A stretch of DNA of 64,000 bases from Lyngbya aestuarii BL J (GTDB lineage Bacteria; Cyanobacteriota; Cyanobacteriia; Cyanobacteriales; Microcoleaceae): the NCBI RefSeq assembly GCF_000478195.2, contig NZ_AUZM01000018.1, forward strand, positions 1 through 64,000. Direction: 5' to 3'. Within the stretch, counting starts at the first letter, position 1, and the number at the start of each line of letters is the position of its first letter. This document shows positions 33,797-48,748 of this stretch, piece after piece. A model generated the notes under the pieces. The model made no database searches, was not told the origin of the DNA, and worked only from the letters and a program-made list of their open reading frames with translations. A program made the position numbers and the translations under genes.

Positions 33797-36679
33797 TTAG
33801 CACTGAGCTTGTAAGATCTCAATTAACTCTTGCTTCACCCACGGCTTTGTCATGTAACCATTTGACCCTAACTGTTGAGCTAATTGACGATAGCGATCAC
33901 TTTTTCGAGACGTTAACATGAGTACAGGAAGCTTTTCTCGGGAGAATTTGCGACGACAATGACTTAGAAATTCTAACCCATTCATCTCAGGCATTTCTAA
34001 GTCACAAATCACGAATTTTATTTGAGGATATCGTTGCAATTTAGCTAATCCGTCTTTACCGTGTTGAGCAGGAATTACAGTATATCCTTCTTGCTGCAAT
34101 GTTGCACACAAAGATTGACGGGTTGTGAGTGAATCATCTATCACTAAAATAGTCATCTGTTTTTTAGTTTGAGATGTTGACTTAATCTCACTCTGAATTA
34201 GCATTACTTTGTCAGTTGTTGCTTGTTGTTTTTGTTGCCATTCTTCTAACAACACCGGACTATCAATCACTGGAACTAAACGACCATCCCCTAATATTGT
34301 ACAACCATAGAAATAAGACGGTGCTTTTAATACTTTTCCAAAGGGTTTAATGGTTAAATTTTGTTCCATTAAAACTTGATCAATTCTTAAGCCAATAGTT
34401 TCTAATCCTTCCGATAACAACAATACCATGACCTTTCCTGAAAATTGTGCAGTTCGGTTTTTTTCCAAAGCAGAGAGATGAGATTGTTCAGGATGAGTAG
34501 GAGTTCCCCGATAGCGATAGTTTGACAATATTGACTGAACTAAAGGAACTTTTTGTCCTAACCAGTTATAAACTTGTCCGCTTTCATGAGACTCAATTTC
34601 TTCTGGAGAAGCGGAAACAACTGCCCCCACAGTATCCATTGCAATTGCAAATAAATAATCATCAATTTGAAAGACTAAGAGTTTGGTAATGGTCAGTGAC
34701 CACGGTAGACGGAGAATAAACTTTGTCCCTTCATTGACTTCAGAGACTATAGTAATATTACCTTTTAAAGCTTTGACTTGATGAGAAACGGCTTCAAGTC
34801 CAACCCCTCGCCCGGATAAGTCAGTGACGCGATTTGTTGTTGAAAAATCCGGTAAAAAGAGTAAATCATATAACTGATTTTTGGTGAGATGTTGGGCATC
34901 TGTTTTAGAGATAAGTCTTTTTTCAACTGCTTTTTTCCTAATTTTTTCTAGATTAATTCCTCGACCATCATCTTGAACTTCGAGATAAATATAGTTTCCT
35001 TGATTATAGGCTTTTATTTCTATTTTTCCTTCGATAGGTTTCTGTTTCTTTTGACGAATTTCTGGGGGTTCGATACCATGATCAAAAGCATTTCTCACGA
35101 GATGAACAAGCGGATCATAAAGTTTTTCTAAAACGGCTTTATCAATTAAAGTCTTCTGACCGATGAGGTTTAATTTAACTTTTTTACCTTTGCGAATAGA
35201 TAAATCTCGCACCATTCTTGGAAATCTATTGAATAGAGATTCTATAGAAATCATCCGAGTTTCTGTGAGATTTTTTTGAACTTGTTGGAGGGTTTGTTGT
35301 CGCTTTTTGACAATTTGCTGACTTTGAAAACTAAGCAATTTCATTTCATACAAAATCTGCTCGACTTTCTCCATTTCATCTAAGGTCTTTTGAACATCAG
35401 TTTTCAGCAAACCTGCTTGATCCCAGTCTTCTAGGTTGAGATGATTATTTGGGGAACTATTAAATTCGGTGGCTTCTTGGAGTCTACCGATAAATTTATG
35501 AAACTGATTCCAACTTTTACTTAGTGTTTCTAAAGAAGATTTTAATTGCTGATTTTGGAGTAAAAAGCTATTGTCTTGAGTTGCCAACTCCCCAACTAAA
35601 TTATTAATCGATTCTAAACGATTTAGATCAACTCGCACTCCTAATGTTAGTTGATTGTTCTCTCCAGAATCAGCAGCAATGATCGCAGTTGATAATGGTT
35701 TTGATGTTTCTTCAGGAGGGGTTTCTGTTACTTTTTGGGAGGATTTTTCTGGAGGTTGAGGAGAATCTTGAGTTAAGGTTAAGGTAGAAACAGACTGATC
35801 CGCAATTTTATGATTATTTTGGCGAGATTTTGGCGAGGTTTGAGATGAAGTTTTAGCAGAAGTTTTATGAACAGTTTGAGAATTTGTTTGAGAACTTGAT
35901 TGAGTTTGAGATTGAGTTAACTTTAAAAGCATTTCACTGGGTTTTCCGCCAGAGGTGCGATCGCCAGATAATACCGCTTTTTGAGCTTCCCAAAAGTCAA
36001 CTAACGCGAGTTTACCAATTTTTATACTTAACTTTGGATTAACTTGAATGGCTTTAATTGTCACCTCTGCAATCATCGCAAACCCGGGCAAACTGAGCAT
36101 TTTCCCCAGTGTTGCAAAGACTTCTGCTTGATTTTTTAACTCCTCAGAAAGATTATAATTTTGAGGATGAATTAACATCTGTTTCCAACGTCGTAACCCA
36201 GACGGAACTTCTTCCTTAAACAGAAATATAGTCATATCTGTTTCCATCGGAACTTCAGGAAGTTCTGAAGCTTCATCTAAGGAATGTCCGAGTAAGGCTT
36301 CAATTTTTGGAAAAATCAACTGTGAACGTTTAGCAACTGCTTCTTGTTGACATTTACCCTTTTCAATTTGTTCAAGAATCGGCGATCGCAAACAGTCAAA
36401 CGCCTGTAACAATAACTCCTCTAATTCTAAGCTAAAAACCGTATCCTTAGCGTACAATGCCCGAATTGCATTTTCCAAGTTGTGAGCAATATCTTGAACC
36501 CCCATCAACCCCACACAAGCCGCCCCTCCTTTGATCGAATGCGCCGCCCGCATCAGGGAGTGAAGTTTGGGCATTTCATGTTCTTGCGTCAGCGTCATTA
36601 ACCCTTGTTCTAAAATTTGCAAGAGTTCTAAAGATTCTTGTACAAAAAATTCATAAGCTTGGTCATTAGTATCAATCAT
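33797..36679 (-). CDS. CheA-type hybrid histidine kinase of the phototaxis cluster (PixL-like)
   Basis: 960 residues. Order: Hpt domain with phospho-acceptor HSIKGGAACVGL (near residue 47), a Gln/Ser/Thr-rich linker (about 255-330), CheA dimerisation and HATPase domain (VRNAFDHGIEPPE, DDGRGIN, LSGRGVGLEAV), a CheW-like domain (about 655-805), and a C-terminal receiver (about 845-960) with ICDLEMP phospho-site. This hybrid layout is that of PixL/PilL kinases that control type IV pilus phototaxis. It is the last gene of the pix-ordered operon, 106 bases after the MCP gene. Confidence 0.93.
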   Translation of the reverse strand: MIDTNDQAYEFFVQESLELLQILEQGLMTLTQEHEMPKLHSLMRAAHSIKGGAACVGLMGVQDIAHNLENAIRALYAKDTVFSLELEELLLQAFDCLRSPILEQIEKGKCQQEAVAKRSQLIFPKIEALLGHSLDEASELPEVPMETDMTIFLFKEEVPSGLRRWKQMLIHPQNYNLSEELKNQAEVFATLGKMLSLPGFAMIAEVTIKAIQVNPKLSIKIGKLALVDFWEAQKAVLSGDRTSGGKPSEMLLKLTQSQTQSSSQTNSQTVHKTSAKTSSQTSPKSRQNNHKIADQSVSTLTLTQDSPQPPEKSSQKVTETPPEETSKPLSTAIIAADSGENNQLTLGVRVDLNRLESINNLVGELATQDNSFLLQNQQLKSSLETLSKSWNQFHKFIGRLQEATEFNSSPNNHLNLEDWDQAGLLKTDVQKTLDEMEKVEQILYEMKLLSFQSQQIVKKRQQTLQQVQKNLTETRMISIESLFNRFPRMVRDLSIRKGKKVKLNLIGQKTLIDKAVLEKLYDPLVHLVRNAFDHGIEPPEIRQKKQKPIEGKIEIKAYNQGNYIYLEVQDDGRGINLEKIRKKAVEKRLISKTDAQHLTKNQLYDLLFLPDFSTTNRVTDLSGRGVGLEAVSHQVKALKGNITIVSEVNEGTKFILRLPWSLTITKLLVFQIDDYLFAIAMDTVGAVVSASPEEIESHESGQVYNWLGQKVPLVQSILSNYRYRGTPTHPEQSHLSALEKNRTAQFSGKVMVLLLSEGLETIGLRIDQVLMEQNLTIKPFGKVLKAPSYFYGCTILGDGRLVPVIDSPVLLEEWQQKQQATTDKVMLIQSEIKSTSQTKKQMTILVIDDSLTTRQSLCATLQQEGYTVIPAQHGKDGLAKLQRYPQIKFVICDLEMPEMNGLEFLSHCRRKFSREKLPVLMLTSRKSDRYRQLAQQLGSNGYMTKPWVKQELIEILQAQC

Positions 36680-36785: not shown

Positions 36786-39700
36786 TCAGTCATTATTAAT
36801 CGTAAATTGAGCGACACCCTTTTGAAGTTCACCCGCCACACCCAACAACTGTGTAAAAGACTCAGCAACGGTGAGAGATTGTTCCGAGGTAGAATGAGCA
36901 ATTGCAGCGACTTCTTGCATTGTACCGGACAATTGACTGGAAGTTTGGGCTTGAGTGGTTGCAGAATCGGCAATTTCTTCGACTAACTCCCGAATTGAAC
37001 GACTCACCTCCACTAAATCCGTTAAGGTGTGACGAGTATCTTTCACCAATTTTGTTCCTAATAATACCCGTTTCATTCCCACTTGCATCGCCCGAATTAC
37101 CTCTTTTGTTTCCGCTTGAATTTCTTCAACAATTTGTTCAATTTCTGCCGATGCACTTGCAGACTGTTCGGCTAAAGTTCGCACTTCTGTTGCGACTGTT
37201 GCAAACCCTTGATCATCTTGACTGGCGCGAGTGGCTTCGACAGAGGCATTCAACGCCAAAACATTAGTTTGGTTCGCAAACTCCCCAATTAAACTAACAA
37301 CTCGGGAAATCTTCTTAGACGCTTCGCCCAAATTTTTCACCTTACGGGCGGTTGCATGAACCGTTTTTTGAATCACCACAATTCCCTCAACGGTGCGGTT
37401 CATTGCCTGATCTGAAGTCTGCAAAATCTGACTGGCTTGTTGAACTTTCATTTCTGCGGCTTGGGCATTTTGAGCCACCGCTTGAATCGAATTTGCCATG
37501 ACTTGAATCTGAGTCAAGGCATCTGAAATTGTTTCAGCTTGTCGCAAAGCTTCATTCGATAATTGCTTAATCTCCTGTTCACTTCCTTGTGCGGTTTGAG
37601 TCACCACAGTCGCTGCTGATTGGACTTGCAAAACTAATCGTTGTAAGTTCTCAATCGTAGCATTAAAAAAGTCCGCCACTGTTCCCATTACCCCTTCACT
37701 GACTCGCGCCCGTACCGTTAAATCTCCACTAAATGAGTCTTCAATATCTTCTAAAAAGTCTTCTATTTGTTGTTGCAGCATTTCATTTTGTTGCTGCTGT
37801 TCATCGGATGCTTTTTCTGCGGCTTGACGGGCTTGTTGAACTTGTTCGAGCAGTTGGGCTTGTTCGAGGGCATAACCGACTTGCAACGCCACTTGTTTAA
37901 ACACTTCGACTTCTGATGCTGCCCATTGTCGCTTACTGGAACATTGATGTACTCCCAACAAACCATAAAGTTTTTGATCGACTAAAATCGGCACAACAAT
38001 ATTCGCTTTCACTTGCCATTTTTGTAGTTGTTCTTGGTGACAATCACTCAACCCAGCAGTCGTAATATCTTCAGTCACCTGAATTTTACCTTTGCGGTAA
38101 GCTTCGACATATTCAGCCGGAAAACAAGGAACTTCGGTTTCCATTTCTATGATTTTTAACCAACCCGGTTTAACGGACTCAAATGAGATTTCCCCGTGCC
38201 AATTTTCATCAAACCGATAAACAACAATTCGATCCGCTTGCATCAAAGATAACGATTCTTCTACCGTCGTGTTAAAAATTTGTTCATAATTAAGAGACTG
38301 ACGAATTCGAGAACTAATCTCACTCAGTTGACGCGCTTGTTGAGTCGCCGCCCGTTGTTGTTCTAGCAGAAACGCCTGATCGACCGCGTAACCGACTTGA
38401 ATCGCAATTTGCCGAATAAAGTCAATTTCTGTCGATTTCCATTTGCGAGGACTCGAACATTGATGAGCAATTAATAACCCCTGTAATTTTTGATTCACCA
38501 CAATCGGCGCGACTAAATTTGCCTTGACTTCAAAGGGTTCAAGCTGACGAAGATGACAGTCTGTTAACCCCGCTTCATAGATATTTTCTGTGGCTTTTAC
38601 CCGACCTTTCAGGTAAGGTTTAACATAGTTTTGAGCAAAACAGGGATCGGCGATATTTGCCCCCAACGCCTCCGGAAAACCGACCGCCACCGATTCGGCA
38701 ACCACAGTCCCCGCCCAATTTTCATCAAATTGATAAACAACAACCCGATCGCTTTTTATTGCCTCTTGAGTATCTTCAACCGTAGTATTAAAAATATCTT
38801 TGGAGTTGAGAGATTCGCGAATATGAGAACTAATTTGATTGAGGCGGGTTGCCCGTTCTGCGGCTTCTTGTTGTTGTTGGAGCAAAATCACCTGATCGAG
38901 TGCTAAACTCAGTTGGGTAGCGAGTTGTTTAACAAAGCTAATATCAGACTCTTTCCACGCTCTCGGCCCGGAACATTGATGGATAATTAACAATCCGTGT
39001 AAACGAGTTTCAGCAATAATTGGGGCGACAATATTGGCTTTCACTGCAAAGGGTTCGAGAAGTTTAATATGACACTCACTTAACCCGGACTCGTGTAGGT
39101 TTTCCATCGTACTGACCCGACCCCGAAAGTAGGGTTTCACATACTGACCCGCAAAGCAAGGATCAGCGATTTTTTTACCCATCGTTGTCGGCCAACGTTT
39201 ATCTACCGATTCTGCAACAACGGTACCGATCCAATCTTCATCAAATTGATAAATAATTGCCCGATCTGCTTTTAAGGCGCTGCGAGTTTCTTCAACAATC
39301 GTATCAAAAACTTCATCTGCACTCCGAGAGTTTCGCAGTTGGGTAATAATGTCATTGAGAAGACGGGCTTTTTTGGCGGCCGCTTGCTGTTCTTCGAGGG
39401 CTGAGGCTTGGTCGAGGGCATAACCGACTTGGATGGCAACGTTGCGAATCAGATCGATTTCTAAGTCTGTCCACACTCTCGGCGCTGAACATTGATGAGC
39501 GATTAGTAGCCCCATCAGTTTATTATTAACTAAAATTGGAGCAACTAAATTGGCTTTAACGGCAAAGGGTTCGAGTTGACCCAGATAGCATTCAGTTAAA
39601 CCCGCTTCATAGATGTTGGTTGTGGCTTTAACTCGTCCGCGTAGGTAGGGCTGTACATAGCGATCGGCAAAACAGGGATCAGCAATTTGCGCCCCTAACG

Positions 39701-40721
39701 CCATCGGCCATTGGTTATCGACAGACTCGGCAATGACGGTACCTTTCCAATGGGCATCAAATTCATAAACCACGACGCGATCGCTATTGATTGCCTCTCG
39801 GGTTTCTTCGACTGCCGCAGTCAGAATATCTTCAACGTTGAGGGATTTTCGCAGTCCGGTGTTGATCTGGTTGAGGCGTTGGGCGATGCGGGTGGCTTCT
39901 CGTTGTTGTTGTAATAATAAGGCTTGATCGATCGCATACCCGAGTTGAATGGCGAGTTGTCGCATAAATTCAACTTCTGCATCAACCCACTGACGGGGTT
40001 CGCTACATTGATGGGCGATCAGCAAACCATATAGATGGCCGGTGGGGTTGTCGCTGGTTTTGGCCAGGATCGGGGCAACGAGGTTTGCCATGACTGCAAA
40101 GGGTTCGAGTTGATTGAGATGACAGTCTGTTAACCCCGCCTCATAAATGTTGGCAGTGGCTTTAACTCGGCCTTTTTGGTAATATTCTACATAGCGATCG
40201 GCAAAGCAGGGATCGGCGATTTCCGCACCAAAGGCGATCGGCCAATTGAGGTCTACCGACTCAGCGACAACGGTACCTTTCCAATTCTCATCAAACTGAT
40301 AAACAATCACGCGATCGCTTTGGAGGGCAGCCCGGGCGTCTTCAACGAGGGTTTTGAAGATATCTTCTAACGTTAGAGATTCCCGCATTCGGGAGGTAAT
40401 TTGGTTAATCAGTTCGGCGCGTTCGGCTGCTGCCCCTTCTTTTTCAATTAAGGCTTGCAGTTGGTTAACTCGGCGATCAATATTAGACCGTAATACATTT
40501 AATTCTTTGGCTAATATTGTGGTTTTGGCTTTCAATCCGATCGGGGGAGTCGCCGAGGATTCAACAACGGTTGGGGTGATTGTTTCTAGATCTGCGGTTG
40601 ATTCGGAGGAGTTAGATTTGGTGTTTTCTGTGCCTTTTTGGGGAGAAAGTGCCGCGCGACGATTAGAATTGGACGGGCGATTGTCGGGGGAGTTTGAAGG
40701 ACGATAAGGTGTTTTAGTCAT
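36786..40721 (-). CDS. Soluble methyl-accepting photoreceptor with five tandem DXCF-type cyanobacteriochrome GAF domains (PixJ-like)
   Basis: 1311 residues with no transmembrane helix. Five GAF domains are spaced about 172-178 residues apart. Each carries two cysteines exactly 28 residues apart: 172/200, 350/378, 522/550, 694/722 and 866/894. The first cysteine sits in DPCF (GAF1-4) or VPCF (GAF5), the second in CH (GAF1, 3, 4, 5) or CY (GAF2). In TePixJ the DXCF and canonical cysteines are also 28 apart (Cys494 and Cys522). A HAMP-like segment (about 985-1045) and an MCP signalling domain follow (to about 1300; FANQTNVLALNASVEATRA hairpin). Blue-type light sensing is inferred; chromophore binding is not proven. 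Confidence 0.9.
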   Translation of the reverse strand: MTKTPYRPSNSPDNRPSNSNRRAALSPQKGTENTKSNSSESTADLETITPTVVESSATPPIGLKAKTTILAKELNVLRSNIDRRVNQLQALIEKEGAAAERAELINQITSRMRESLTLEDIFKTLVEDARAALQSDRVIVYQFDENWKGTVVAESVDLNWPIAFGAEIADPCFADRYVEYYQKGRVKATANIYEAGLTDCHLNQLEPFAVMANLVAPILAKTSDNPTGHLYGLLIAHQCSEPRQWVDAEVEFMRQLAIQLGYAIDQALLLQQQREATRIAQRLNQINTGLRKSLNVEDILTAAVEETREAINSDRVVVYEFDAHWKGTVIAESVDNQWPMALGAQIADPCFADRYVQPYLRGRVKATTNIYEAGLTECYLGQLEPFAVKANLVAPILVNNKLMGLLIAHQCSAPRVWTDLEIDLIRNVAIQVGYALDQASALEEQQAAAKKARLLNDIITQLRNSRSADEVFDTIVEETRSALKADRAIIYQFDEDWIGTVVAESVDKRWPTTMGKKIADPCFAGQYVKPYFRGRVSTMENLHESGLSECHIKLLEPFAVKANIVAPIIAETRLHGLLIIHQCSGPRAWKESDISFVKQLATQLSLALDQVILLQQQQEAAERATRLNQISSHIRESLNSKDIFNTTVEDTQEAIKSDRVVVYQFDENWAGTVVAESVAVGFPEALGANIADPCFAQNYVKPYLKGRVKATENIYEAGLTDCHLRQLEPFEVKANLVAPIVVNQKLQGLLIAHQCSSPRKWKSTEIDFIRQIAIQVGYAVDQAFLLEQQRAATQQARQLSEISSRIRQSLNYEQIFNTTVEESLSLMQADRIVVYRFDENWHGEISFESVKPGWLKIIEMETEVPCFPAEYVEAYRKGKIQVTEDITTAGLSDCHQEQLQKWQVKANIVVPILVDQKLYGLLGVHQCSSKRQWAASEVEVFKQVALQVGYALEQAQLLEQVQQARQAAEKASDEQQQQNEMLQQQIEDFLEDIEDSFSGDLTVRARVSEGVMGTVADFFNATIENLQRLVLQVQSAATVVTQTAQGSEQEIKQLSNEALRQAETISDALTQIQVMANSIQAVAQNAQAAEMKVQQASQILQTSDQAMNRTVEGIVVIQKTVHATARKVKNLGEASKKISRVVSLIGEFANQTNVLALNASVEATRASQDDQGFATVATEVRTLAEQSASASAEIEQIVEEIQAETKEVIRAMQVGMKRVLLGTKLVKDTRHTLTDLVEVSRSIRELVEEIADSATTQAQTSSQLSGTMQEVAAIAHSTSEQSLTVAESFTQLLGVAGELQKGVAQFTINND

Positions 40722-40803: not shown

Positions 40804-41334
40804 TTATTCCTGAACTAAATCTCGGAGGATTGCTTCGAGATCAAGAATGGGTAAAATTGTATCTTGAGAACTGACCCAACTTCCTTGAATCCAATGGGGT
40901 TGAATCGGAGTGATTGATTCTTTTTGATGGGGAGATTTTTTGAGGGATTTAAGTTGAGAATAACTGAGTTCAGGTGCTTGAATACTCGAGGATTCACAGC
41001 TTATTAATTCCCCGATTTGAGCGACCCATAAACCAATATTGCCTCGGTGAATTCTGGCTTTAATAATGCTACAATTAGACTGAATGTTTGTGGGTTTTCT
41101 CAGCGGTTCAAAACCAAACAGATAGGCAAGATCGACCAACCAAAGGACTTCCCCTTGCCAGGGACAGACTCCGATCACCGCTAAAGGCATCTCTGATATC
41201 GGTATAATTTGGGTGGGATCGAGTCGAATGATCTCTGCTAATTGGTGAGCGGACAACAGGGCTTGCAGAGTGGGGTTGAGCGAAAAACTAAAAAATTGTT
41301 CAGTGGGAGTCGAACTGGCAGATTTCCCCTTCAT
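40804..41334 (-). CDS. CheW-like adaptor (PixI-like)
   Basis: 176 residues with a CheW fold: FFSFSLNP at the N-terminus, VIGVCPWQGEVLWLVDLAYLFG, IQPHWIQGSW and LPILDLEAIL. It would bridge the MCP and CheA. It lies 82 bases before the MCP gene in the same operon. The length is normal for a stand-alone CheW. Confidence 0.9.
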   Translation of the reverse strand: MKGKSASSTPTEQFFSFSLNPTLQALLSAHQLAEIIRLDPTQIIPISEMPLAVIGVCPWQGEVLWLVDLAYLFGFEPLRKPTNIQSNCSIIKARIHRGNIGLWVAQIGELISCESSSIQAPELSYSQLKSLKKSPHQKESITPIQPHWIQGSWVSSQDTILPILDLEAILRDLVQE

Positions 41335-41531: not shown

Positions 41532-42791
41532 TTAAGAATTGATCATCGGTTTAACCGTATAATCAGAAGTCGGAGCGGGATCTTTTTTAGCTCCTTCTCT
41601 GAAATTGTAAGCTCTCAGCAGGGGGAATTTTTGGGCGAGGTGTTGGCGAACTACTTGCAAAGTCTCGCGAGGATTGGGCGGCTTACTCAAAAAATCCGTT
41701 GCACCTGCGATTTTGGCATAGTTTCTATCGACGACTGTATCTCGACTGGTGAGAATAATCACAGGGGTATTCTGAAAAATAGGAGCATTGCGTAAAAACT
41801 TACAAACAATATATCCATTTGCATTGGGCATGACTAAATCCAGAAAGATTAAATCAGGTTTATGTTCTGCAATTTGAGCCAGTCCTTTGACGGGATTTTG
41901 AATACTTAAAATTTGACATCCCACAGGTTCGAGAATTTGCTTGAGACTTTCTACTGCAACTGGACTATCATCAATACAGGCGATTAAAGGTTGTTTACGA
42001 GTTGATGTTTTTTCGGTTTGAACGGTTAAATTATTCGTTTGTTCGGCAACTGAATCAGTCTGTACAGCTAAATCGGGCAACATTCTAAACTTTAAAAGTC
42101 CTTTCTGAACTAAAGGAATTAAAGCACGAGCAATCGTTACAATCGGCTTTTGAATTTTCTGGGAAATATCCCATAAAGTTAACTCTCCATTGAGATATTT
42201 GACTAAACCGGAGAGGGCTTTGGGATTGACGGGTTTTGTTAAAATCGGAGCCAGATTAGGGTCAAGATGGCTTAAATGAGCCGTTTGCCATTGCGTTTGC
42301 ATCTGGGTGACTTGAAGTAAAATTTTTTTCACTTCTGAGTCACAAAAAGAAAGGTGTTTGGAAAAGCCAGACTGGAGAGCAGTTTGAGCTTCCCATTGAA
42401 ACTGGAAGTCAACATAGCGACTCATGGAAAACAACACTTCACTGATGACTCGTCGGATGACTGCTTTGGCTTGAGTCAGGTTGAGTTCTTGACGACGAAT
42501 TCCTTGGTATAAAAGTTTATATTCCCAAAGTGAAGAATTGAGAGAGGAGGGGAGTTTAACCGTAATTTTCGGACAGTATTTGTCAACACTTCTTGACCAA
42601 CGACGCACACGATGAATGTGAGAGGTTGCATACAACAGTTGACCCTGGCTGAAGTAAAGACTTCCTTCTTCAGTATGGCTACTAAGAATGAGGATACCAC
42701 TTTCGTTCTGTTGACTCAATCTATCGAGTTCTTCAGCGAGCCGCTTGAGATGTACAGATTCTATTATGGTCATGGTTGGTTGGGTAGACAC
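41532..42791 (-). CDS. PatA-type response regulator (DUF4388 + receiver), copy 2
   Basis: 419 residues. An N-terminal DUF4388-like domain (about 1-120, SGILILSSH, LYFSQGQLLYATSHIHRVRRW) and a linking helical region precede a C-terminal receiver (about 270-395) with acidic IDDSP, phospho-site IFLDLVMP and the Lys of LSKPP. It is clearly paralogous to the protein at 43754-44917. Members of this group are named PatA after the heterocyst-pattern protein, but the Pix-operon form (PixG) works in phototaxis. An unusual strong inverted repeat lies upstream (42909-42940). Confidence 0.9.
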   Translation of the reverse strand: MSTQPTMTIIESVHLKRLAEELDRLSQQNESGILILSSHTEEGSLYFSQGQLLYATSHIHRVRRWSRSVDKYCPKITVKLPSSLNSSLWEYKLLYQGIRRQELNLTQAKAVIRRVISEVLFSMSRYVDFQFQWEAQTALQSGFSKHLSFCDSEVKKILLQVTQMQTQWQTAHLSHLDPNLAPILTKPVNPKALSGLVKYLNGELTLWDISQKIQKPIVTIARALIPLVQKGLLKFRMLPDLAVQTDSVAEQTNNLTVQTEKTSTRKQPLIACIDDSPVAVESLKQILEPVGCQILSIQNPVKGLAQIAEHKPDLIFLDLVMPNANGYIVCKFLRNAPIFQNTPVIILTSRDTVVDRNYAKIAGATDFLSKPPNPRETLQVVRQHLAQKFPLLRAYNFREGAKKDPAPTSDYTVKPMINS

Positions 42792-43280: not shown

Positions 43281-43667
43281 CTAAGCGAGTCCTGCTTTTC
43301 CAGAAGGCAAAGTCACCTTTCTAACTGTGTTGATTAATTCTTCGCGATCAATTGGTTTGGTTACATAGGCAGATGCTCCTTGTTTTAAGCCCCAATTCTT
43401 ATCAATTTTGGCGGATTTACTTGAACAAATCACAATCGGAATATGAGCAGTTGTATTTTGATTTTTTAGCTCCCGACACAATCCAAATCCACTTTGACCC
43501 GGTAAAACTACATCCGTAACAATAGCATCAAAAATTTTATGTTCCAGCAAAACTTTTGCAGCTTCAGCAGTGCTAACATTATGGACATCAAAACCCGATT
43601 GACGCAAGCAACCAATCATCAGATCGGCTTCAGTCGGATTGTCTTCTATCACTAATATACTTGTCAT
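43281..43667 (-). CDS. CheY-like single-domain response regulator (PixH-like)
   Basis: 128 residues, one receiver domain: IEDNPTEAD acidic pair, phospho-site IVTDVVLP, CSSKS and the Lys of VTKPI. It is of normal length for CheY. Its place between the PatA-like gene and CheW matches PixH. Confidence 0.93.
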   Translation of the reverse strand: MTSILVIEDNPTEADLMIGCLRQSGFDVHNVSTAEAAKVLLEHKIFDAIVTDVVLPGQSGFGLCRELKNQNTTAHIPIVICSSKSAKIDKNWGLKQGASAYVTKPIDREELINTVRKVTLPSGKAGLA

Positions 43668-43753: not shown

Positions 43754-44917
43754 TTAAACCTTGGAGGATTGAGGCAGATATTTGCGAACCAGTTCCAGAG
43801 TTTCCTGTGGCTGAGGAGGCTTAACCAGAAAGTCAGAAGCACCCACAAGTTTAGCACGACTTCGATCAATCACATTATCCTGACTGGTCAAAATAATCAC
43901 AGGTGTTTTTTCAAATAAAGGTGCATTTCGTAAAAATTGACAAACTGTATAACCATTAGCATTAGGCATGATTAAATCTAAAAAGATTAAATCAGGTTTT
44001 TGTTCAGCAATTTGAGCCAAGGCTTTTATGGGGTCTTGAATTCCGACAACCTTATAGCCAGCAGGTTCAAGAATTTTGCGTAAACTTTGAGCGACAACCG
44101 GACTATCATCAATACAAGCAATCAAAAACGGAGTTTTAGGGGTTGTTTGAGGTGAACGAACTGAAGCCGAAGTCGCCCCTGTTGGTGTTGGTAGAGGTGT
44201 GGATAAATCTGGAATTTGCCGCAGTTGTAAAATCCCTTTTTTGATCAAAGGAACCAAAGCACGAGTAATACTGATGACTGATTTTCCCATCCTTAAAGAA
44301 ATATCCCAGAGGGTAAACCTTCCATCAAGATATTGGGCTAGACCCGAAAGACTTTGAGGATTGAGTTTCTTTTTAGAAGCCGGAGATAAATTCGGATGAA
44401 TGCTGCTTAAACCTGCTGTTTGCCACTGCTGCTGCATTTGAGCGGCTCGTGTAAAAATTTGCTCAATTTCAGAAAAAGACAGGGCTAAACCGAGAGAAAG
44501 ATGAGTCTTTTTTTCAGAAGAAGGTTTCCATTCAAGACTAATATCAGTATATCGAGCTAAAGAAAATAACACTTCTAAACTGACTTGACGAATCACAATT
44601 TTAGCTTGAGTCAGACTAATTTTTTCTCGGGCAACTCCTTCATAAAGCATCTGATATTCCCACGGTGTTGTACTCTGATCAAATGTCAGCAACGCCGATG
44701 AAGGTTGCCAATCTGGACAATACTTGAGAACTGCTCTTTTCCAACGTCGTACCTGATGACGCTCAGTTGTAACATAGAGTAGCCGACCATAAAACAGGTG
44801 AAACTTTCCGTCTTTGTCATGGGTAGAGAAGCACAAGTCTCCGGTTGCCATTTGTTGACATCGGTGATCGAGTTCTTGTACCAATCGCTGATAGGGAGTA
44901 GATTCGTCAGTTTTCAT
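43754..44917 (-). CDS. PatA-type response regulator (DUF4388 + receiver), copy 1 (PixG-like)
   Basis: 387 residues in the same order as the paralogue: DUF4388-like domain (about 1-115, GDLCFSTHDKDGKFHLFYGRL), middle helical region, receiver (about 250-380) with IDDSPV, IFLDLIMP and LVKPP. First gene of the Pix-ordered cluster, 86 bases upstream of the CheY-like gene, so it takes the position of pixG. Both PatA copies keep all receiver residues needed for phosphorylation. Confidence 0.92.
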   Translation of the reverse strand: MKTDESTPYQRLVQELDHRCQQMATGDLCFSTHDKDGKFHLFYGRLLYVTTERHQVRRWKRAVLKYCPDWQPSSALLTFDQSTTPWEYQMLYEGVAREKISLTQAKIVIRQVSLEVLFSLARYTDISLEWKPSSEKKTHLSLGLALSFSEIEQIFTRAAQMQQQWQTAGLSSIHPNLSPASKKKLNPQSLSGLAQYLDGRFTLWDISLRMGKSVISITRALVPLIKKGILQLRQIPDLSTPLPTPTGATSASVRSPQTTPKTPFLIACIDDSPVVAQSLRKILEPAGYKVVGIQDPIKALAQIAEQKPDLIFLDLIMPNANGYTVCQFLRNAPLFEKTPVIILTSQDNVIDRSRAKLVGASDFLVKPPQPQETLELVRKYLPQSSKV

Positions 44918-45561: not shown

Positions 45562-47367
45562 ATGAATCAAAGCACCCCTAACTTTATAAAAGCCGATATC
45601 CTGATTGTTGATGATACACCCATGAATTTACGCCTGCTCTCAACGATGTTGAGTGACCAAGGCTATGAAGTGCGTCAAGCAATTAATGGAAAAATGGCAT
45701 TGACGGCAGTACAAACTTGTCCACCGAGCTTAATATTACTTGATATAATGATGCCTGACATCGATGGATATCAAGTCTGCTATTTTCTTAAAAATGATCC
45801 TAAAACTGCTGAGATTCCGATTATTTTTTTAAGTGCTTTAGATGATGTTTTAGATAAAGTTAAAGCTTTTAAAGCGGGAGGGGTAGACTATATTACCAAA
45901 CCGTTTGAATTTGAAGAAATTTTAGCGAGAGTCAAAAATCAACTCGCCTTAAAAGATGCTAAATTAAAACTTAGCACCCTAAATGCTCAACTTGAAAAAC
46001 GAGTCGAACAGCGTAAAAAGCAGCTTGAAGTTGCCAATGCTAAACTCCTAGAAATGGCACTGCATGATCCGTTAACGGGATTACCCAATCGTCGATTTTT
46101 AATGGAGCAATTAGAACAATCACTCAACCGAGCTAAACAAGATTCACAGGCTCAATTTGCCGTCTTATTTTTAGATTGCGATCGCTTCAAAGTCGTCAAT
46201 GATTCACTCGGTCATTTAGTCGGAGATGAACTGCTAATTGCTCTGAGCCGTCGTTTAGAAACTTTACTCAATCCCGATGATATTTTAGCACGATTGGGAG
46301 GAGACGAATTTATTATTCTTCTCCAGTCGATTCATCACTCTCAGCAAGTCACTCAAATTGCCAATTCTATTTTAGAGGCTCTTTCCCACCCCTTTCAACT
46401 CGAAGAACATGAAGTTTTTATTAATACAAGCATTGGGATTGCTCTTGGGCATCCAAACTATGAAAATCCCGAACATTTATTAAGAGATGCAGATAATGCA
46501 GTCTACAAAGCAAAAGCATTAGGTCGAGGTCGATATCACATTTTTGACTCAACTTTACACGTTGCTGCGATTAATACTTTAGAGCTAGAAACAGAACTCC
46601 ATAAAGCGATTAAAGAACAAGAATTAGTCGTTTACTATCAACCCATCGTCGTTTTAAACACAGGTAAAATCGTGGGTTTTGAGGCTCTCGTTCGTTGGCA
46701 GCACCCCACCCGAGGTTTGATTTCTCCCCATTCCTTTATTCCTATTGCCGAAGAAATTGGATTAATTATTCCGTTGGGTAAGTGGGTTTTACATCAATCT
46801 TGTCAGCAACTTCAAACCTGGCAAAAACAAAATCTAGTTGACGATTCTTTCTTTATTAGTGTCAATCTTTCGGCGCGACAACTGACTCAACTCGATCTAA
46901 ACGAACAGGTTGATAAAATTCTCCATGATACTCAAATTAATCCTGAATGTTTAAAACTCGAAATTACTGAAAGTTCCTTAATGGAGAATCCTCAAATTGC
47001 GATTGATATTCTTCAAAAATTCAAACAACGAGGAATTCAGTTAGGCATTGATGACTTTGGTACGGGTTATTCCTCACTCAGTTACTTACATTATTTTCCC
47101 TTAGACACCCTCAAAATCGACCAATCTTTCGTCAAACAGATTAATGAAACCTCAAAAAAATTAGGATTGGTTCCAATTATTATTAATATCGCTCAAATTT
47201 TAGAGATGAATGTGATTGCAGAAGGGATAGAAACTCAAACTCAGTTAAGACAACTGCTAAGTTTAAATTGTAAATTAGGTCAGGGGTACTTATTTTCTTG
47301 TCCCGTTAATGCAGAGGAGGCAATTCATCTCGTTTCATCTAATGAATGGCAAAATTTAATTCCCTAA
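45562..47367 (+). CDS. Response regulator with GGDEF and EAL domains (c-di-GMP turnover)
   Basis: 601 residues: receiver (about 10-130, LLDIMMPD phospho-site near residue 59), a linker coiled coil, GGDEF domain (motif GGDEF intact near 243, diguanylate cyclase) and EAL domain (EALVRWQHP near 372 and DDFGTGYSSLSYL, phosphodiesterase). Both catalytic motifs are complete, so the net direction cannot be told. The receiver is close in sequence to that of the next gene (ILVVDDTP..., MALTA.., DKVKAFKAGG), suggesting that both answer the same kinase or that one arose from the other. Confidence 0.95.
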   Translation: MNQSTPNFIKADILIVDDTPMNLRLLSTMLSDQGYEVRQAINGKMALTAVQTCPPSLILLDIMMPDIDGYQVCYFLKNDPKTAEIPIIFLSALDDVLDKVKAFKAGGVDYITKPFEFEEILARVKNQLALKDAKLKLSTLNAQLEKRVEQRKKQLEVANAKLLEMALHDPLTGLPNRRFLMEQLEQSLNRAKQDSQAQFAVLFLDCDRFKVVNDSLGHLVGDELLIALSRRLETLLNPDDILARLGGDEFIILLQSIHHSQQVTQIANSILEALSHPFQLEEHEVFINTSIGIALGHPNYENPEHLLRDADNAVYKAKALGRGRYHIFDSTLHVAAINTLELETELHKAIKEQELVVYYQPIVVLNTGKIVGFEALVRWQHPTRGLISPHSFIPIAEEIGLIIPLGKWVLHQSCQQLQTWQKQNLVDDSFFISVNLSARQLTQLDLNEQVDKILHDTQINPECLKLEITESSLMENPQIAIDILQKFKQRGIQLGIDDFGTGYSSLSYLHYFPLDTLKIDQSFVKQINETSKKLGLVPIIINIAQILEMNVIAEGIETQTQLRQLLSLNCKLGQGYLFSCPVNAEEAIHLVSSNEWQNLIP

Positions 47368-47425
47368 AAAGAATATTGAAATTCGGTTTTTTTAAAGGTT
47401 ACATCAAAAAATATGCTCGATAAAT

Positions 47426-48748
47426 ATGATGAATCCACTGGAAGATATTTCTAATAAACCGGATATTCTCGTCGTTGATGATACCCCGGCAAACTTACGT
47501 TTGCTGTCCAAAATGATGACCGAGCATGGCTATAATGTGCGACAGGCAATCAACGGAAAAATGGCACTCACTGCTATTAAAGCCGTTAAACCTGATCTGA
47601 TTTTGCTCGATATTAATATGCCTGAGATGAATGGCTATGCAGTTTGTGAAACCCTTAAACAGAATGAAGAAACTTGCTCTATTCCGATCATCTTTCTAAG
47701 TGCGTTAGATGATGCCTTAGATAAAGTAAAAGCCTTTCAAGCCGGAGGATCAGACTATATAACTAAACCCTTTCAGCTCGAAGAAATTCTCATCAGAATT
47801 AAAAATCAACTTACCATTCAACAGTTACAAAATAAACTACAACATCAAAATCAGCAACTCAAAACAGCCTTAAGTGAATTACAAGTCACTCAAGCCCAAC
47901 TGGTTCAACATGAAAAAATGGTAGGCTTAATGCAATTGGTTGCTGGAATTGCCCATGAAATCAATAATCCCATTAGCTTTATTTCGGGAAATATTGAACC
48001 TGCAAATCAATATATTCAAGACTTGGTGAAGTTAATTCAACTCTATCAACACGAATATCCTCACCCGCCAAAAACAATTCAAAATATGATCGAAGAAATC
48101 GATTTAGATTTTATAGTCTTCGACTTGCACAAAATAATGGGTTCGATGAAAAACGGAGTAAATCGAATCTGCACAATTATTCTCGCTTTACGGATTTTTT
48201 CTCGGTTAGATGAATCTGATATCAAATTAATTAATCTCCATGAAGGAATCAATAGCACCTTACTACTTTTAGACCATCGACTCAAACTTCCCAACAGTCC
48301 CTTAGACATTAAAATTATTAAAAATTATGATAAAATCACTAAAATCACCTGTTATGCGAGTCAACTCAATCAAGTATTTTTAAATCTATTAAGTAATGCA
48401 ATTGATGCAATTGAATCGAAATTAGCTCAACATCAGGTCGAGTTTCAAAATCCCACAATTTGGATTACGACTGAATTACAAGATAAAAATACAGTCAAAA
48501 TCAAGATCAAAGACAACGGAATTGGGATTTCACCTGAAGTCAAAACTCGTTTATTTGATCCTTTTTTTACCACAAAGCCCGTCGGAAAAGGAAGTGGACT
48601 AGGCTTATTAACAAGCTATCAAATTGTTGTCGAAAAACATCAGGGAAAACTTGATTTTCATTCGGTATTCGGAGAGGGAGCAGAGTTTGTGATTGAAATC
48701 CCGGTTCATCAAAATCTGATCAAGTCAGAAGCACAGAGTAGCTTTTAA
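47426..48748 (+). CDS. Response regulator-histidine kinase hybrid
   Basis: 440 residues (start ATG at 47426, or 47429). An N-terminal receiver (about 14-130, LLDINMPE phospho-site) is followed by a coiled coil (about 135-165), a HisKA helix with phospho-acceptor His near 177 (GIAHEINNPISF) and a HATPase domain (NLLSNAIDA, DNGIGI, GKGSGLGLL). No sensor domain or membrane segment is present, so it is a cytoplasmic relay kinase. It starts 58 bases after the GGDEF-EAL gene and is likely in one operon with it. Confidence 0.93.
   Translation: MMNPLEDISNKPDILVVDDTPANLRLLSKMMTEHGYNVRQAINGKMALTAIKAVKPDLILLDINMPEMNGYAVCETLKQNEETCSIPIIFLSALDDALDKVKAFQAGGSDYITKPFQLEEILIRIKNQLTIQQLQNKLQHQNQQLKTALSELQVTQAQLVQHEKMVGLMQLVAGIAHEINNPISFISGNIEPANQYIQDLVKLIQLYQHEYPHPPKTIQNMIEEIDLDFIVFDLHKIMGSMKNGVNRICTIILALRIFSRLDESDIKLINLHEGINSTLLLLDHRLKLPNSPLDIKIIKNYDKITKITCYASQLNQVFLNLLSNAIDAIESKLAQHQVEFQNPTIWITTELQDKNTVKIKIKDNGIGISPEVKTRLFDPFFTTKPVGKGSGLGLLTSYQIVVEKHQGKLDFHSVFGEGAEFVIEIPVHQNLIKSEAQSSF

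Follow-up and report, generated by a model that had tools for sequence, protein, structure and literature searches.

A probable five-GAF PixJ phototaxis receptor with no decayed cysteine pair in Lyngbya aestuarii

A gene of Lyngbya aestuarii BL J in the first 64,000 nucleotides of contig NZ_AUZM01000018.1 (the window) bears on why cyanobacteria line up many light sensors in a single receptor. The open reading frame at positions 36786 to 40721 encodes a methyl-accepting chemotaxis protein (MCP) with five tandem GAF domains, and we consider it probable, taking the whole explanation developed below as one, that its product serves this member of the Microcoleaceae as the phototaxis receptor PixJ. 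The protein is a sound and unsurprising member of the known PixJ family, unusual mainly in having no decayed sensor. The reading frame, its coordinates and every cysteine position in the original prediction were reproduced exactly, and the receptor has the following parts:

36786..40721, minus strand: pixJ, soluble five-GAF MCP photoreceptor of 1311 amino acids (open reading frame and Pfam)
39888..40421, minus strand: GAF1, DPCF/CH, second Cys172, canonical Cys200; 51% identical to the TePixJ GAF over 155 residues
39372..39887, minus strand: GAF2, DPCF/CY, second Cys350, canonical Cys378; 46% identical to the TePixJ GAF
38856..39371, minus strand: GAF3, DPCF/CH, second Cys522, canonical Cys550; Leu replaces TePixJ Gln526
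38340..38855, minus strand: GAF4, DPCF/CH, second Cys694, canonical Cys722; top PDB match TePixJ 3vv4
37824..38339, minus strand: GAF5, EVPCFP/CH, second Cys866, canonical Cys894; distinct sub-lineage; AlphaFold2 model
36900..37400, minus strand: MCP signalling domain, residues 1108-1274 (Pfam)

Identity of the five GAF domains

Pfam recognised five GAF domains (1.1e-91) and one MCPsignal domain (1.4e-36) in the protein; NCBIfam gave zero matches above any curated cut-off. The canonical cysteine stands in a C-H/Y motif in all five GAFs (CH in four, CY in GAF2), and 28 residues upstream of it lies a second cysteine, which in GAF1-4 belongs to a DPCF motif of the DXCF type. The third cysteine of each GAF is found in (A/I/V)HQCS (residues 239, 411, 583, 755 and 927) and has a counterpart in TePixJ, the PixJ of Thermosynechococcus. 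As all 15 cysteines of the protein are confined to these three homologous positions, with zero elsewhere, their spacing is not a matter of chance. No membrane span was apparent, the highest Kyte-Doolittle mean over a 19-residue window being 1.44, against maxima of 2.1-2.6 in the majority of the scanned relatives with two or three GAFs, and the earlier description of the receptor as soluble therefore holds.

TePixJ (PDB 3vv4, 4fof and 6p58) was the top PDB match for the whole protein (1.4e-44, via GAF4) and also when GAF2 (4.8e-43) or GAF5 (1.5e-39) was searched by itself, and the individual GAFs are 42-51% identical to it. It shares the DXCF-type GAF and the MCP output, but has one solved photosensory GAF where the Lyngbya protein has five. 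Its residues C494 and C522 carry the pigment (PMC6955287) and are likewise 28 apart, as had been proposed from the spacing, and their equivalents, together with that of N535, are present in all five GAFs. In the AlphaFold2 model of GAF5 (predicted local distance difference test, pLDDT, 90; predicted template-modelling score, pTM, 0.88) the canonical cysteine starts the helix 99-107 and the second cysteine sits just before the helix 75-82. The top 40 PDB matches of this model were all cyanobacteriochrome or phytochrome GAFs or fluorescent proteins derived from them, the best being a dual-sensor cyanobacteriochrome kinase (42% identical, E=8.5e-20), and the template-modelling scores against TePixJ crystal structures were 0.75-0.92. 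As modelled, GAF5 thus has a cyanobacteriochrome fold with both cysteines at the pocket, and a placement away from it is not supported.

The only bilin reductase found in the genome is PcyA (361.9 bits against a cut-off of 206), which makes phycocyanobilin the expected pigment. Each GAF would bind it through the canonical cysteine of the C-H/Y motif. In TePixJ the second cysteine forms a bond with C10 of the pigment that is broken on photoconversion (PMC6955287). The cysteine of DPCF in GAF1-4 would bond to C10 in the same way and help to convert the pigment into phycoviolobilin by isomerisation, so that the dark state would absorb blue light and the photoproduct green. Judged from their sequences, the pixJ GAFs are DXCF-type cyanobacteriochromes in a pix operon and probably act as repeated blue/green sensors, close to the repeated blue-type sensor first proposed. 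Several pocket residues weigh against this picture. The B-ring propionate binders H498 and W499 of TePixJ are replaced in all five GAFs, and the equivalents of three further residues are present in four GAFs each: GAF2 has Tyr for His (H523) beside the canonical cysteine, GAF3 is without Q526, and GAF5 is without the motif Asp (D492). One or more of these domains may consequently bind pigment poorly or have a different photocycle.

With three cysteines in each GAF, the domains could instead sense another ligand, or the redox state through their cysteine pairs, without any bilin. GAF domains generally bind many ligands. We nevertheless consider such a function extremely improbable: the best matches are bilin-bound GAFs of solved structure whose two attachment cysteines are the same and lie equally far apart, the third cysteine is found in TePixJ too, and the genome provides phycocyanobilin through PcyA.

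Cysteine pairs in orthologues and paralogues

Full-length homologues with the same architecture and operon were found in Okeania, Trichodesmium and other Microcoleaceae at 63-71% identity. All five pairs, i.e. ten cysteines, are kept in four Okeania orthologues (L011, L012, L014 and L025), whereas pairs have been lost in GAF2 or GAF3 in Trichodesmium (L015) and in two other loci (L032 and L052). A PixJ-like MCP from a relative of Synechococcus elongatus (L078, genome G097) carries DPCF/CH in six of six tandem GAFs, separated by five linkers of 68 residues; it differs in the number of GAFs, in having N-terminal hydrophobic segments that, read from sequence, resemble membrane spans, and in lacking a GAF5-type (D/E)xxCFP domain. 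On the chromosome of that genome lies DNA that is 84-87% identical to a region of the S. elongatus plasmid NC_007595. By these motif counts, receptors with many GAFs and both cysteines in each are not unique to Lyngbya.

The Lyngbya genome itself holds three five-GAF MCP paralogues with graded loss of the cysteines, the window copy and two others:

Contig C7 (34000-50000), 3165-13239: L002, a second complete pixG-H-I-J-L operon, its PixJ 67% identical to that of the window
Contig C6 (126000-140000), 3938-7828: L001, an orphan five-GAF PixJ-like MCP, 53% identical to that of the window

The C7 protein has both cysteines in GAF1-3 and, within an altered DDFCL/CQ motif, also in GAF4, and has lost both in GAF5; the C6 protein keeps the pair in GAF2 only. 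At the threshold used, no second or third five-GAF paralogue was found in Okeania, Trichodesmium or other Microcoleaceae, and the graded set is one of the features that are new here. Tree building pairs the C7 and C6 copies as sisters; the clade to which they belong includes the window protein and one further locus (L019). Contamination is an unlikely source of the two paralogues: their tetranucleotide correlation with the window is 0.97-0.98, in comparison with 0.41-0.85 for other cyanobacteria, their GC content is similar, and C6 carries the only full-length match to rbcL. The tetranucleotide make-up of the window, C6 and C7 fits one genome. The C6 orphan lies downstream of rbcL and of two small genes resembling rbcX and rbcS.

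At the sequence level, the view that a cysteine pair marks a working sensor is best supported by a contrast within the C6 gene: when the motif columns are disregarded, GAF2 shares 72% identity with the window GAF2, and the four pairless GAFs share only 42-48% with their own counterparts. Across orthologues and paralogues, 52 dual-cysteine GAFs average 69% identity to the window orthologue, in comparison with 53% for the 8 with a cysteine lost (Mann-Whitney p=1e-4). Two things count against this reading: the rows of the test are non-independent, owing to shared ancestry and some near-duplicate genomes, and within-gene contrasts are weak outside C6, several recently lost pairs being barely more divergent than the rest.

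The same comparisons bear on the question whether photoactivity is limited to part of the five GAFs, the rest being kept as structural spacers that fix how long the helical spine is, with cysteines that are relics. In Synechocystis PixJ1 the second GAF is the only one to bind bilin (PMC5812497), and both the Lyngbya paralogues and other relatives retain the five-GAF array and its spacing even though some of their GAFs have lost one or both cysteines. In the window protein, by contrast, all five pairs are intact, the end branches are short (0.07-0.17), and the five GAFs are about equally conserved against the Okeania orthologue L011 (70-77%). The fast divergence of the C6 domains that lost their cysteines further suggests that intact pairs are in present use, and we find it quite unlikely that part of the array is inactive.

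With the window sensors being mostly of one apparent colour type and all intact, and the same array occurring with one pair (C6) and with three to four pairs (C7), the genome offers a natural series in which scaffold and spacing stay constant, and on which it can be tested whether additional sensors of a similar kind increase photon capture, bring cooperativity or have no effect. This graded set, the GAF5 sub-lineage and the constant pitch of the linkers are the most useful features of the system.

The GAF5 sub-lineage and the linkers

In a tree of 72 GAFs that included red/green (XRG) references, all five pixJ GAFs fell outside the XRG reference clade (split 99), and the XRG motif WXDXXL was not found before the canonical cysteine in any of the five. 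An assignment of GAF5 to the XRG domains can be dismissed on both counts. The GAFs of Okeania, Trichodesmium and relatives cluster by position across species and not by species, which indicates that the five-GAF array is old, ancestral and not homogenised; concerted evolution of the repeats is ruled out by the same grouping.

GAF5 forms a clade of its own (support 99%). Those of its orthologues that keep the cysteine all read (D/E)-x-x-C-F-P, with the acid three residues before the cysteine, one further than in DXCF, and the Asp two residues before the cysteine is absent from the clade. The description of all five domains as DXCF-type consequently stands for GAF1-4, and GAF5 with its EVPCF is better named DXCF-like. 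Its VPCF, previously taken for an isolated variant, marks a fixed sub-lineage and not a chance change, and this is new here. With the acid displaced and the Asp absent, the photochemistry of GAF5 may differ from that of the other four; its photocycle is probably shifted, its photochemical outcome uncertain, and the sub-lineage provides a natural test of the role of the DXCF Asp. The CY of GAF2 had similarly been regarded as special, but CY for CH recurs in many GAFs, among them those of L013, L016, L019, L032, L091 and L092 and of the C7 paralogue, and is no rare variant.

In Limnothrix-type relatives (L017 and L073-L075) with five or six GAFs, most domains are without the second cysteine and the last has a GAF5-type motif (DTPCFP, DAPCFP or EVPCFP), which suggests that there the MCP-proximal GAF5 is the most strongly retained dual-cysteine sensor. 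Other cyanobacterial multi-GAF MCPs (several loci in L081-L099) combine red/green GAFs containing WXDXXL with a last GAF of DPCL/CY, a recurring dual-cysteine variant.

Successive GAFs of the window protein, measured from where one ends to where the next begins, are 68 residues apart in four of four linkers. In the homologues this distance is 68 in 76 of 105 linkers and 75, i.e. one heptad (+7) longer, in 21 of 105. Coiled-coil linkers with heptad periodicity have been described for other photoreceptors, tandem cyanobacteriochrome GAFs have been named as a likely case of signal integration via such linkers, and positive cooperativity has been demonstrated in an engineered receptor (PMC6798134). 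In our model of the five-GAF array, a helix of 41-46 residues is predicted to emerge from each GAF and, where another GAF follows, to continue into it. The identical spacings, a further new feature, hint at a coiled-coil relay, and given the heptad precedent a phase-locked relay from the five GAFs to the MCP tip seems the likeliest design. Light-driven changes in the GAFs would travel along the helices of constant pitch, which in the dimer would form a parallel coiled-coil spine, and a spine carrying five similar sensors would capture more photons and could respond cooperatively. However, the array model has a pTM of 0.44 with unreliable domain placement, so that the geometry of the spine is not established; spacings of 64, 77 and 81 also occur, if rarely, and the constant spacing may partly reflect shared descent.

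A more specific and somewhat unlikely reading assigns the GAF5 sub-lineage, (D/E)xxCFP...CH, a photocycle of its own, e.g. with phycocyanobilin kept and a blue/orange or otherwise shifted pair of states. GAF5 would then be an MCP-adjacent gate that integrates the four upstream blue/green sensors through the phase-locked spine, and the receptor a cooperative detector of low light or of colour ratio. If this were true, the genome's paralogues with fewer intact sensors would be a graded set of receptors with different sensitivities.

The pix operon and its output

The operon order claimed for the locus is real. On the minus strand the genes run pixG-H-(second G)-I-J-L around the receptor gene:

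43754..44917, minus strand: pixG, a receiver together with an N-terminal domain akin to the one in the second pixG-like gene
43281..43667, minus strand: pixH, CheY-like receiver
41532..42791, minus strand: second pixG-like gene, a DUF4388/PATAN-type N-terminal domain and a receiver
40804..41334, minus strand: pixI, CheW
33797..36679, minus strand: pixL, CheA-type kinase with Hpt, CheW and C-terminal receiver

The second pixG-like gene, between pixH and pixI, is 50% identical to pixG. It was seen only in the window, and neither the C7 operon nor the relatives examined have it; the relatives carry one pixG in the order G-H-I-J-L, which Okeania, Trichodesmium and others share. The locus thus combines cyanobacteriochrome GAFs fused to an MCP with PixG, H, I and L homologues in one operon, as expected of a PixJ-type receptor. 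The MCP tip together with PixI would control the kinase PixL, and PixL would phosphorylate PixH and the two PixG-type regulators, which would act on type IV pili.

The G, H, I, J and L kinds of gene are also those of the tax1/pix operon of Synechocystis, where the blue/green receptor PixJ1 (TaxD1) is coupled to proteins of the CheA/CheW type (PMC5812497). With two GAFs, one of them bilin-binding, and two membrane spans, PixJ1 differs from the Lyngbya protein, which has five GAFs and no span; the Lyngbya operon also has an extra pixG-like gene. PtxD (NpF2164) of the filamentous cyanobacterium Nostoc is a multi-GAF MCP phototaxis receptor with che-like partners; it has seven GAFs, as correctly stated in the original prediction, but bilin is linked to the second cysteine in two only, and it covers six colours (PMC5812497). 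The Lyngbya receptor, in contrast, has both cysteines in all five GAFs and probably senses mostly one colour pair. Another multi-GAF receptor is the PixJ of S. elongatus UTEX 3055. It is described as blue/green and bidirectional in a review (PMC12652804), and PixJ proteins with one to five GAF domains have been published (PMC13383048).

What the receptor does to movement could differ from steering. In Phormidium lacuna, likewise a filamentous member of the Oscillatoriales, PixJ down-regulates photophobotaxis, and the effect of 3-(3,4-dichlorophenyl)-1,1-dimethylurea (DCMU) points to photosystem II as the sensor (PMC13383048); by analogy, the Lyngbya PixJ might set the light sensitivity (adaptation) of photosystem-driven photophobic responses instead of directing phototaxis. 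Nostoc hormogonia that lose the multi-GAF MCP PtxD, on the other hand, lose positive phototaxis (PMC5812497), and we regard an adaptation role as possible but doubtful. It departs from the phototaxis explanation in the behavioural output only and shares its molecular mechanism.

Beside the operon, at 45562-48748, lie divergent genes for a receiver-GGDEF-EAL protein and a receiver-histidine kinase. The pair does not adjoin pix in the Okeania loci examined, and in Lyngbya it represents a possible link of cyclic diguanylate (c-di-GMP) to motility control.

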